NCBI RefSeq assembly: GCF_000419685.1
Contig: NZ_ATTM01000002.1
Coordinates: 186,001-250,000, forward strand
DNA: 64,000 bases
Reading direction: 5' to 3'
From: Flavobacterium antarcticum DSM 19726
GTDB taxonomy: Bacteria > Bacteroidota > Bacteroidia > Flavobacteriales > Flavobacteriaceae
Shown one piece after another: positions 60,177 to 63,791 of this stretch; positions within the stretch are counted from its first letter, which is position 1, and the number at the start of each line of letters is the position of its first letter. A model generated the notes under the pieces. It saw only the letters and a list, made by a program, of their open reading frames with translations. It had not been told where the DNA came from and did no database searches. Made by a program: the position numbers and the translations under genes.

Positions 60177-60527
60177 CTATTCGTTGTGTAAAAACGCTTT
60201 CCTGTTCAGTAACGTTTCATCGCTTTCAACGTGATTATCATCAGGAACACAACAATCTACAGGACATACAGCCGCACATTGAGGTTCGTCGTGGAAACCT
60301 TTACATTCTGTACATTTACTTGGTACAATATAGTAGTAATCGTCTGAAACTGGGATTTGAACTGCATCCGCATCCACTTCTGTTCCGTCCGGTAAAACAA
60401 CTTTACCCGTTAATTTTGTTCCGTCTTTATACCTCCAGTCGTCAGCACCTTCGTAAATTGCAGTGTTTGGACATTCCGGTTCACATGCACCACAATTGAT
60501 GCATTCATCAGTTATTATGATTGCCAT
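60177..60527 (-). CDS. Dicluster 4Fe-4S ferredoxin
   Basis: A 116-residue electron carrier. The first cluster motif is [19 protein letters not shown] (8-26), with a long insertion of about 45 residues before the second motif [20 protein letters not shown]. It resembles the YfhL/FdxA-type 2[4Fe-4S] ferredoxins found widely in Bacteroidota. It donates or accepts low-potential electrons in the cytoplasm. It is divergent from the acyl-CoA reductase gene, and this gene pair is common in the family. Confidence 0.92.
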
Positions 60528-60572: not shown

Positions 60573-60603
60573 TTGTCTATTGCTTAGAAAAGGTTTATTT
60601 TTG
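60573..60603 (+). promoter_or_regulatory. Promoter of the acyl-CoA reductase-serC unit
   Basis: TTG at 60573-60575 and TATTTTTG at 60596-60603 with a 20-base spacer. This places the reductase start at 60643 rather than 60580, which lies inside the promoter. Confidence 0.65.
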
Positions 60604-60642
60604 TGCAAAATTACGTCCAAAACATTTCATAAGCAAATCAAT

Positions 60643-61701
60643 ATGACCTTAGAACATAAAAAAAATACTTTAGTCGAATTAGGTAAATTCCTCTCCCAAT
60701 TTCACTTGGAAAAAAGCGTACCTAATCCCGAAGTTTTAAAAAACGATTTGTTTTATACTGCCTTTTTAGACTTAATTGAATTGTCGCAATCGCACAACGG
60801 TTGGTACACACAAGAAAACGTTTATTTTGCTGTAGAATCGTGGGCTAAAGCACTTACTAAGGATAATTTAGAACAATGGCTTTCAAAATATAATTTTGAT
60901 AATGTGAATCCAAAAACCGTTGGATTAGTCTTAGCCGGAAATATTCCGCTAGTTGGCTTTCACGATTTTATTTGCGTCTTGCTTTCAGGTCATCATGTAC
61001 AAGTAAAAACATCTTCTAACGACCAAATGTTATTACCATTCTTGGCCAATTATCTAACTTCTGTTGAACCTGCTTTGTTGAATTGTATTCATTTCTCAGA
61101 AGGAAAGCTAACTGATTTTGACGCCGTAATTGCAACAGGTAGTAACAATACAGCGCGTTATTTTGAATATTACTTTAAAGACAAACCTTCTATTATTCGC
61201 AAAAATAGAAATTCTGTAGCCGTTTTAAATGGCTCTGAAACTGCAGCAGATTTTGAAGCTTTAGGTGAAGATATCTTCAGGTATTTTGGATTAGGTTGCA
61301 GAAATATTTCTAAGATTTTTGTGCCAAAGGGTTACGTTTTTGATTCATTCTTTGAAGGAATTTTCAAATACCAAGATGTAATTCATTACGAGAAATACGC
61401 CAATAATTACGATTATAATAAGGCCGTTTTCTTGATGAGTAATTTCAAACTATTAGATAACGGATTTTTGACAATTAAAGAAGATGCAAGTTACGCCTCT
61501 CCTATATCAAGTGTGTTCTATGAATTTTATGATGATTTAGATACTTTGAAAGCAAAACTTGCCGATGAGAAAGACCAAATTCAATGCATATCATCAAATA
61601 ATTTAGTGCCCAATAGCATTCCTTTCGGGAAAACGCAACAACCTGAATTGTGGGATTATGCAGATAATGTGGATACATTAGAATTTCTATTGAAACTATA
61701 A
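60643..61701 (+). CDS. Acyl-CoA reductase (LuxC-like)
   Basis: A 352-residue aldehyde-dehydrogenase-superfamily protein of the LuxC group, which reduces acyl-CoA to aldehyde with NAD(P)H. Visible: LVLAGNIPLVGFHDFICVLLSGH (nucleotide and acyl binding), ATGSNNTARYFEYYF, and GLGCRNISKIFVPKG, whose Cys is the thioester-forming residue. It is shorter than LuxC of luminous bacteria (about 480). The two genes after it, serC and a SerA-like gene, lie 31 bases apart each and are probably co-transcribed. Confidence 0.85.
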   Translation: MTLEHKKNTLVELGKFLSQFHLEKSVPNPEVLKNDLFYTAFLDLIELSQSHNGWYTQENVYFAVESWAKALTKDNLEQWLSKYNFDNVNPKTVGLVLAGNIPLVGFHDFICVLLSGHHVQVKTSSNDQMLLPFLANYLTSVEPALLNCIHFSEGKLTDFDAVIATGSNNTARYFEYYFKDKPSIIRKNRNSVAVLNGSETAADFEALGEDIFRYFGLGCRNISKIFVPKGYVFDSFFEGIFKYQDVIHYEKYANNYDYNKAVFLMSNFKLLDNGFLTIKEDASYASPISSVFYEFYDDLDTLKAKLADEKDQIQCISSNNLVPNSIPFGKTQQPELWDYADNVDTLEFLLKL

Positions 61702-61732: not shown

Positions 61733-62806
61733 ATGAAAATACATAATTTCAGTGCAGGACCTTGTATCCTTCCCCAGGAAGTGTTTGAAAAAGCAGCACA
61801 AGCCGTCTTAAATTTAGACAATTCGGGATTGTCAATTTTAGAAATTTCACACCGAAGTGACGCTTTTATTGCGATTTTAGAAGAAGCGAAAGCATTGGTG
61901 TTAGAATTGATGAATTTGGAAAATCAAGGATATGAAGTTTTGTTTTTGCAAGGTGGAGCAAGTATGGAATTTTTACGTGTTCCCTACAATTTATTGGCAC
62001 AAAATCAAAAAGCAGCTTATTTAGATAGCGGACTTTGGGCAGCAAACGCAATTAAGGAAGCAAAAAGTTTTGGTGAGGTTGAAATTATAGCTTCTTCAAA
62101 AGATGAAAATTATAATTTCATTCCAAAGAATTATAAAATTCCCGAAGACGCAGCCTATTTTCATTGCACTTCAAATAATACTATTTACGGAACACAAATG
62201 AAAAATTTTCCTGAGACAAACATTCCCGTAGTTTGCGACATGAGTTCCGATATTTTTTCAAAAGCAATTGATTATTCCTATTTTGATCTAATTTATGCTG
62301 GTGCTCAAAAAAATATGGGTCCTGCTGGAGTAACTTTAATCGTTATTAAAAAAGATATCTTAAGAAAATCAGGCAGAAAAATTCCAAGTATTTTAGATTA
62401 TCAAAAACACATTGATGCTAAAAGCATGTTCAATACGCCAAATGTTTTTGCAATTTACACCTCATTGTTAAATTTGAGATGGCTGAAAAAAAGTGGTGGA
62501 ATTTCGAAATTACAAGAAAAAAACGAAGCGAAAGCTAATTTATTATACACAGAAATTGACAGAAATCCACTATTTGAAGGAACAGCAAATGCCGAAGATC
62601 GCTCGATGATGAACGCAACTTTCGTATTAAAAGATTCACGGCTAACTAATAAATTTGCACAAATTTGCGAAAGCAAAGGAATCTCTGGAATTCTTGGACA
62701 TCGAACGGTTGGCGGTTATCGTGCTTCGCTGTATAACGCATTGCAATTGGAAAGTGTGCACGTTTTAGTAAATGCGATGCAAGAATTAGAAAAATATACA
62801 AATTAA
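61733..62806 (+). CDS. serC: Phosphoserine aminotransferase
   Basis: A 357-residue PLP aminotransferase (class V) for serine and pyridoxal-phosphate synthesis: 3-phosphohydroxypyruvate to phosphoserine. It starts MKIHNFSAGPCILPQEV; the PLP lysine is in YAGAQKNMGPAGVT; the substrate-binding end is GHRTVGGYRASLYNAL. Length and motifs are normal. It precedes a SerA-like gene after 31 bases, as in other Flavobacteriia. Confidence 0.95.
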   Translation: MKIHNFSAGPCILPQEVFEKAAQAVLNLDNSGLSILEISHRSDAFIAILEEAKALVLELMNLENQGYEVLFLQGGASMEFLRVPYNLLAQNQKAAYLDSGLWAANAIKEAKSFGEVEIIASSKDENYNFIPKNYKIPEDAAYFHCTSNNTIYGTQMKNFPETNIPVVCDMSSDIFSKAIDYSYFDLIYAGAQKNMGPAGVTLIVIKKDILRKSGRKIPSILDYQKHIDAKSMFNTPNVFAIYTSLLNLRWLKKSGGISKLQEKNEAKANLLYTEIDRNPLFEGTANAEDRSMMNATFVLKDSRLTNKFAQICESKGISGILGHRTVGGYRASLYNALQLESVHVLVNAMQELEKYTN

Positions 62807-62837: not shown

Positions 62838-63791
62838 ATGAAAGTATTAGCTAACGATGGAATTTCAGCAAATGGAATCCAACTTTTAGAACAAAACGGA
62901 TTTGAAGTAATCACTACGAAAGTCGCGCAAGAGCAAGTTGCCGCTTATATCAATAAAAATGAAATTGATGTTTTATTCGTTCGTACTGCAACAAAAATTT
63001 CAACTGAACTATTAGACGATTGTCCTTCGCTGAAAGTAATAGGAATTGCTGAAGAAGCTATTGACAATAAGATTATTGACTACGCGAAATCTAAAGGAAA
63101 AACAATTGTAAATGCATCCGATTCTTCCGCCGTAGCAATGGCAGAATTGGTTTTTGCACATTTATTTTCAGGTGCTCGTTTTTTGCACGATGCCAACAGA
63201 AATATGCCTTTAGAAGGAGATAGTAATTTCAATAGCTTGAAAAAGGCATACTCAAGCGGAATAGAACTAAGAGGAAAAACACTTGGAATCATTGGTTTTA
63301 CAGCTTCTGGAATTGAAGTTGCAAAAATAGGATTAGCTTTAGGAATGCATGTAATCGTTGCTGATGGTTCGACTGAAGAAACGGAGATTGAACTGAATTT
63401 CTACAACGGAAAGTCGGTGATTGTAAAAGTAGAGAAAGTAGAATTAAACCAACTTTTAAGGCACTCGGATTTTATTACGATACATCTTCCTGCGTCTGAA
63501 AAGAAATATTTGATCAGTGAACCAGAATTCAAATTAATGAAGGACAATGTGGGAATTGTAAACGTCTCACAAGGCGGAATCATCAACGAAGTGGCATTAT
63601 TAAAAGCATTAGACGACAACAAAGTACTGTTTGCTGGATTAGATGTTTTTGAAGAGCAACCGACTCCTGCCGTTCAAGTTTTGATGCATCCAAAAGTTTC
63701 GTTGACACCTCACATTGGAAGTACGACAGTAGAAACACAGCAGAGAATGGAAATTGAATTGGTACAAAAAGTCGCTCAGCTTCTAAAATAA
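62838..63791 (+). CDS. SerA-like D-2-hydroxyacid dehydrogenase with lost active-site motifs
   Basis: A 317-residue protein with the fold and operon position of phosphoglycerate dehydrogenase. The nucleotide domain reads GIIGFTASG (153-158) where GxGxxG is expected, the substrate loop GRGGVGxDNID reads GIAEEAIDNKI (69-79), the catalytic Arg of NxxRGG is Gln245 (NVSQGG), and the Glu before Pro in the GLDVFxxEP segment is Gln274 (EEQP). His292 of PHIG is kept. Flanking parts (ELVFAHLFSG, NRNMPLEGDSNFN) are highly typical of the flavobacterial SerA family. It is full length and intact as a frame, so it is either a pseudoenzyme or has a changed reaction. Confidence 0.85.
   Translation: MKVLANDGISANGIQLLEQNGFEVITTKVAQEQVAAYINKNEIDVLFVRTATKISTELLDDCPSLKVIGIAEEAIDNKIIDYAKSKGKTIVNASDSSAVAMAELVFAHLFSGARFLHDANRNMPLEGDSNFNSLKKAYSSGIELRGKTLGIIGFTASGIEVAKIGLALGMHVIVADGSTEETEIELNFYNGKSVIVKVEKVELNQLLRHSDFITIHLPASEKKYLISEPEFKLMKDNVGIVNVSQGGIINEVALLKALDDNKVLFAGLDVFEEQPTPAVQVLMHPKVSLTPHIGSTTVETQQRMEIELVQKVAQLLK

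Follow-up and report, generated by a model that had tools for sequence, protein, structure and literature searches.

The window analyzed here, a stretch of 64,000 nucleotides from Flavobacterium antarcticum DSM 19726, carries behind serC a gene whose product has the length and fold of a phosphoglycerate dehydrogenase (PGDH, SerA) and has lost the catalytic and cofactor motifs of that family. The locus raises the questions of whether such a gene is a relic, a protein kept for something other than dehydrogenation, or a catalyst of another kind, and of where this strain would then oxidize its phosphohydroxyacids. A preliminary description, made from the sequence, had argued against simple decay and proposed a pseudoenzyme, a scaffold or regulator of SerC, or an enzyme with a new reaction. 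The features concerned are as follows, with the operon deduced from gene spacing.

60177..60527, minus strand: 4Fe-4S ferredoxin, a divergent neighbor conserved with the locus
60580..61701, plus strand: LuxC-like acyl-CoA reductase frame upstream of serC, probably the operon's first gene
61733..62806, plus strand: serC, aminotransferase class V, ending 31 bases ahead of the SerA homologue
62838..63791, plus strand: candidate SerA-fold pseudoenzyme, full length, 317 residues; intact frame with 2-Hacid_dh domains, catalytic and cofactor motifs lost
63042..63068, plus strand: former substrate loop, residues 69-77, GRGGVGMDN changed to GIAEEAIDN; residues 70-75 kept in 108-109 of 109 relatives
63111..63140, plus strand: former active-site segment, residues 92-101, NTPASSSESV changed to NASDSSAVAM (alignment of relatives)
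63294..63311, plus strand: former NAD loop, residues 153-158, GFGRIG changed to GFTASG; Gly-155 in 109 of 109 relatives, Thr here
63570..63572, plus strand: codon 245, catalytic Arg changed to Gln (NVSQGG); Arg in 109 of 109 relatives
63657..63659, plus strand: codon 274, catalytic Glu changed to Gln (EEQP); Glu in 109 of 109 relatives
63711..63713, plus strand: codon 292, catalytic His retained (TPHIG); Asn at this position in an 18-member clade described below

Loss of the family motifs in the window protein

The frame at 62838-63791 begins with ATG and runs through 317 codons with no internal stop. Its product gives a two-domain match to PF00389 and PF02826 with 136.7 and 59.6 bits, passing the gathering scores of 25.1 and 24.6, and scores 224.7 bits against TIGR01327 for a cut-off of 454, a value to be read with the model length of 525 in mind and with no canonical short SerA as yardstick. 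The best PDB sequence match (phmmer) is the Pyrococcus PGDH 1wwk, with the motifs in register, and both synteny and orthology with the flavobacterial serA beside serC hold.

We aligned the window protein with relatives from 109 loci that are 54-63% identical to it. Some of these loci are one gene under an unnamed and a named record, and the canonical relatives, mostly chosen for being the top matches of the window protein, are a non-random sample. Tblastn matches above 1e-50 and duplicate proteins were dropped from the alignment of the genus sample described below, and proteins shorter than 300 residues were left out of the counts of loop and other columns. Of the 166 columns on which 95% or more of the 109 relatives agree, 38 are altered in the window protein. 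Arg-70, Gly-72, Val-73, Gly-74, Gly-155, Arg-245, and Glu-274 are present in all 109 relatives and Gly-71 in 108, and all six of the residues 70-75 are replaced in the window protein, where residues 69-78 read GIAEEAIDNK. The Arg-Glu-His triad of a D-2-hydroxyacid dehydrogenase appears here as Gln-245, Gln-274, and His-292, and G155T breaks the GxGxxG motif. The preliminary description had reported this loss of the triad Arg and Glu, of GxGxxG, and of the substrate loop in a full-length homologue with His-292 kept and the frame intact over 317 residues, and the relatives and the frame bear it out on every point: the triad positions sit in register with canonical residues in the relatives, and the segment 92-101 proves to be rewritten as well. 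Asp-176 and His-292 are retained, as is Arg-49, which aligns with the Arg of the phosphate-binding Arg-Ser motif. PMC6303947 agrees on the roles of the Arg, Glu, and His residues, the substrate-loop amides, and the Arg-Ser motif.

The altered invariant columns are concentrated in the ligand loops (24 of 49, compared with 13 of 115 elsewhere; Fisher p 7e-7), the loop set being our own choice from family motifs. Sequencing error is an unlikely cause of 38 altered conserved columns that are clustered and free of frameshifts. With the short flavobacterial SerA of about 317 residues, whose closest solved chain is 1wwk, the window protein thus has in common the fold, the length, the position next to serC, 54-68% identity, and the Arg of the Arg-Ser motif; it differs in the catalytic Arg and Glu, GxGxxG, the substrate loop, and the 92-101 segment. 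The catalytic loss is established at the level of sequence, and we infer that the protein can no longer act as an NAD-dependent hydroxyacid dehydrogenase.

Across 398 genomes of the genus, its own included, the nearest relative is that of genome G268, which is 68% identical, aligns without gaps, and is canonical at the motifs; the window form itself occurs in one of the 398 genomes sampled. Flavobacterium-like serA genes 56-59% identical to the window gene also lie on contigs of metagenome-assembled genomes (L051, L066, L107, and L116) titled Sphingobacterium thalpophilum, Bifidobacterium breve, Chitinophaga pinensis, and Chryseobacterium gleum. Since they carry such a gene under these other titles, an error of binning or labelling is possible for these contigs.

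An older clade and the history of the window gene

In six of 101 genus genomes the best match to the window protein is just 41-44% identical. In these six proteins EEEP is kept, and the Arg is gone (most read NCAYPEA), as are GxGxxG, the His, and the substrate loop. A profile built from these low-identity proteins and run on the 398 genus genomes retrieved 18 members at 540-602 bits, the next score being 348 and that of the window protein 342. The substrate-loop glycines and the GxGxxG glycine are lost in this clade, and Arg is replaced by Tyr and His by Asn in 18 of 18 members. All 18 have serC within the same short locus, L108 having been dropped from the locus and serC set as it has no long serC match there, and the order ferredoxin, LuxC-like reductase, serC, pseudo-serA equals the canonical order in the six loci checked. 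The divergent ferredoxin and the LuxC-like reductase adjoin serC in most canonical loci and in the six pseudo-SerA loci compared. Searched at 1e-120, a sample of 397 genomes from elsewhere in the family yielded no member of the clade, in a search that carried no positive control of its own.

Among the canonical-invariant columns, the clade consensus is altered at 33 of the 49 in the loops and at 35 of the 115 outside them (p 2e-5). A single new residue is fixed in at least 17 of the 18 members at 11 of the 33 altered loop columns, among them W92, A93, E94, L97, A100, T101, Y245, E247, and N292, and at seven of the 35 altered columns elsewhere; conservation within the clade is 0.806 in the loops and 0.755 in the rest (p 0.095). 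Codon models gave omega values of 0.030-0.102 in four unsaturated groups, with omega = 1 fitting worse in each. Canonical SerA gave 0.005-0.033 in three sets, and the SerC genes of those four groups gave 0.050-0.084; the pair L163/L165 was saturated, and probably L189/L190 too. An intact frame, purifying selection, and lost catalytic residues, the marks of a functional pseudoenzyme, are thus all found in the clade. Because purifying selection goes together with loss of the motifs, its members appear to be maintained proteins without the chemistry of the family, and retention for a non-catalytic role is well supported for them. Like the window protein, the clade adjoins serC, shows the same classes of loss, and is altered at 27 invariant columns in common with it; unlike that protein it keeps the Glu and has lost the His, is older and strongly constrained, and is only 41-44% identical in the six members measured.

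AlphaFold2 predicts that both proteins keep the family fold. The window model has a mean pLDDT of 79.0 (below 50 at residues 115-127, 139-141, and 272-275) and that of a clade member 78.1 (below 50 at 114-127 and 269-296), from shallow alignments of 25 and 18 sequences, respectively. The low-pLDDT stretches take in the former Glu loop in both models, and the best PDB match of each is 1wwk.

Whether the window form and the clade arose together depends on which alignment is read. In the full SerA tree the window gene joins the 18-member clade, both inside the G268 branch, and on a tree without the ligand loops it groups with G268; these two nodes carry no support value after rerooting, and the next node out on the loop-free tree has 100. 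In the SerC tree the sister of the window genome is G268, and the clade stands far from both. The L001 gene of the window genome, which encodes another member of the dehydrogenase family, shares 89% identity with that of G268 and 57-66% with those of the clade genomes. An AU test on the full alignment, with two trees from fast searches, rejected neither the joined arrangement (p 0.842) nor the one with G268 (p 0.158). Of the 37 columns altered in the window protein, 27 are also altered in the clade (p 1e-5), and at six of those 27 the window residue equals the clade consensus. A single origin is thus disfavored by the SerC tree, the L001 identities, and the loop-free SerA tree, short of proof. 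We read the grouping in the full tree as long-branch attraction with parallel change, a reading that is not proved, and hold with moderate confidence that there were two origins, the window gene being probably a young and independent parallel of the older clade.

The branch leading to the window gene is long, with 0.43 substitutions per site on the loop-free tree; on the full tree it measures 0.25 plus a stem of 0.32 common to the clade, and G268 measures 0.05. The SerC branches are 0.22 for the window and 0.20 for G268. Between these two genomes serC is 75% identical, and the reductase, ferredoxin, and Rid-type neighbors are 88-92% identical. A DUF6146 gene (71%) and an MsrA-like gene (76%) have diverged to a degree like that of serC. 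Since synonymous sites are saturated, pairwise omega for SerA against G268 is unusable, as it is for SerC and the DUF6146 gene. The same saturation affects the unclocked branch model, in which window omega is 0.08, omega = 1 is worse by 10.7 log units, and the two-ratio model gains just 2.2 over the one-ratio model, a weak gain that saturation explains. We therefore replaced this estimate by a clocked one, with a clock of 1.5-3.0 per branch based solely on the reductase, ferredoxin, Rid-type, and L001 genes. On the window branch, where one genome carries the form, the clocked omega goes from 0.40 to 0.20 over this clock range, against a background of 0.023, and fixing omega at 1 costs about 50 to 170 log units. 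The roughly tenfold rise indicates that the relaxation is real. Simulations that started from the G268 gene, not the ancestor, and left indels outside the model produced stop-free genes in 0 of 400 runs when all divergence was neutral, in 13 of 400 when half was, and in 73 of 400 when a quarter was.

Neutral decay along the whole window branch is rejected, as omega = 1 fails with the clock and without it in the dN/dS analysis that the preliminary description had called for. The 73 stop-free runs at quarter-neutral divergence leave a short recent neutral phase compatible with the data. Retention of the window gene for a non-catalytic role is probable.

SerC, vitamin B6, and the supply of serine

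The preliminary description had asked where phosphoglycerate is oxidized in this strain. The search for a canonical serA elsewhere in the genome, suggested in the preliminary description, found none: full-length PF02826 matches are two, the window gene and L001, so that L001 is the sole other intact member of the family. It keeps the Arg-Ser, GYGNMG, NTARG, LEYE, and HIAG motifs in the window strain, and it falls below the cut-offs of the NCBIfam families listed, with PGDH ranking first. A match of at least 57% was found in all 34 genomes compared, own included, one copy having an internal TAA. That copy, at G145:C1:3988999-3989931, belongs to a pseudo-SerA genome, which may lack both dehydrogenases. 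By elimination, L001 is a candidate for the oxidation of 4-phosphoerythronate or 3-phosphoglycerate. According to PMC9997740, most Gracilicutes clades other than the best-studied proteobacteria lack PdxB or PdxR, and PMC5764234 proposes an FAD-linked oxidase for the missing SerA in Burkholderia and Herbaspirillum. Serine could alternatively be imported, made from glycine, or supplied through another oxidase.

SerC itself seems to be in use. The window SerC retains its SHRS, AQKN, and GHR..GGYRAS motifs, and SHR and QKN are kept in the SerC sequences compared, those of the window and of four clade and four SerA-less members; the third motif is unmatched in the SerA-less member L217. PdxJ exceeds its cut-off in all 35 genomes tested, own included, so the B6 route by way of DXP, in which SerC takes part, is likely to operate, and SerC is probably kept for B6. 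Of 101 genus genomes, 45 have a SerB (TIGR00338) that exceeds its cut-off. The window genome has none, nor does any of the 18 clade genomes or of the 12 SerA-less genomes searched, four of these 12 being less than 90% complete. Loss of SerB was considered as a cause of the change in SerA; the canonical G268 and 43 of 88 other genomes lack a TIGR00338 SerB too, so that it would be at most permissive.

At 1e-30, 23 of the 398 genus genomes have no SerA match, at least one of them, G329, owing to a contig end. Among 12 such genomes serC is present in 11, one of which is G329 with its canonical serA cut by the contig end. The other ten are L208-L217, and eight of them, L208-L215, fall into a single SerC clade. 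In these ten serC has other neighbors, and no remnant of SerA lies within some 1.5 kb of it. As these ten keep serC alone, SerC appears to have no constant need of SerA. Elsewhere in the genus, a canonical-scoring serA match in a single-contig genome (G346:C1:3352041-3352982) has an internal TAG, possibly plain decay, and G394 has two matches of equal score on different contigs (G394:C4:2212165-2213112 and G394:C6:43225-44172), a duplicate of either the gene or the assembly.

Explanations for a SerA fold without its chemistry

The explanation that we prefer, by a little more than an even chance, is that the SerA-fold protein of the window is kept as a non-catalytic subunit or ligand-sensing partner beside serC. 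The PGDH reaction would probably have become dispensable in the window lineage, in which no TIGR00338 SerB exceeds the cut-off, with L001 perhaps taking over phosphohydroxyacid oxidation for B6 synthesis, or with serine taken up. Selection would then have released the ligand loops but not the rest of the fold, and the protein would have been kept for its presumed new role and partner. That it is a scaffold or regulator of SerC, as the preliminary description proposed, is possible, gene order being the observed link and anything beyond it conjecture, and the ten genomes with serC alone count against it; the wider interpretation given there stands in part, namely, as a pseudoenzyme and not simple decay, for which the clustering in the loops, the rejection of omega = 1, the simulations, and the 18-genome clade all argue. 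A bolder form, which we put forward tentatively and think somewhat improbable, is that the SerA beside serC was converted at least twice independently from PGDH to a conserved non-dehydrogenase with a rebuilt cleft, a new bacterial pseudoenzyme family that would sense a phosphorylated metabolite or control SerC flux into B6.

The window gene might instead be a recent relic that went out of use lately and is drifting to loss, chance and its place in a gene cluster having kept the frame open so far. We consider this unlikely, if the strongest of the competing explanations. It would account for the tenfold rise in omega and for a form seen in one of 398 genomes; genomes without a SerA match (23 of 398), the internal TAG in G346, and the 73 of 400 stop-free genes at quarter-neutral divergence fit it as well. 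The 13 invariant columns altered outside the loops, and a form that no close relative shows to persist, also tell against the preferred explanation. The relic does not readily explain why the changes cluster in the ligand loops (24 of 49 against 13 of 115), why 317 codons have stayed free of stops and aligned without gaps to G268, or why omega = 1 is rejected over the whole branch, and stop-free genes are rare in simulation when half or all of the divergence is neutral (13 and 0 of 400). To a cleft rebuilt for another reaction or metabolite, which would make the protein a new catalyst or ligand-binding protein, we give less credence still. His-292 and Arg-49 are kept, and the 11 of 33 altered loop columns that are fixed in at least 17 of 18 clade members indicate that the cleft is not simply free. 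Against this, seven of 35 altered non-loop columns are fixed too, loop conservation exceeds that of the rest only at p 0.095, the window residue equals the clade consensus at just six of 27 common altered columns, and Pfam scans give no other noteworthy domain. Finally, a working dehydrogenase with unusual residues has precedents in PMC6303947, where Gln replaces Glu in most formate dehydrogenases and the SERA type IIIK enzyme functions with Lys for His and without the Glu, and His-292 and Asp-176 are kept in the window protein. The same paper has the Arg as the most conserved active-site residue, and the window protein lacks it jointly with the glycines of the substrate loop and that of the dinucleotide motif; we regard this last alternative as highly improbable.

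Among the matches listed, titles and the beginnings of abstracts, mostly from outside the subscription journals, mention no paper on a SerA pseudoenzyme in Bacteroidota and no such bacterial protein. The nearest precedents found are Arabidopsis ANGUSTIFOLIA (PMC9907507) and the unstudied 2HADH groups X4 and X13 (PMC6303947). ANGUSTIFOLIA, a CtBP-like plant protein of the same superfamily that the paper gives as about 30% similar to the CtBP core, is likened to the window protein by description, and we claim no direct relation. X4 and X13 resemble it as natural groups of unknown function with altered catalytic or substrate-loop residues; about half of X4 lacks the His and Glu and X13 lacks the loop Gly, and the joint loss of the Arg and the NAD glycine, which the account of these groups does not describe, sets the window protein apart.

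Within one genus, then, a highly conserved core enzyme seems to have turned into a non-catalytic protein on more than one occasion, each time at the same locus. Because the genus now has both a young case, whose sister genome is canonical, and an older one under constraint in 18 genomes, the path from enzyme to pseudoenzyme is directly testable here. Annotated by homology, such proteins would probably be named SerA or D-2-hydroxyacid dehydrogenase, and the genome credited with a serine pathway that it may not have. For the unassigned dehydrogenase step ahead of SerC in B6 synthesis, the analysis also suggests L001 as a candidate. Related losses of SerA recur in the genus, and the finding extends beyond one strain.
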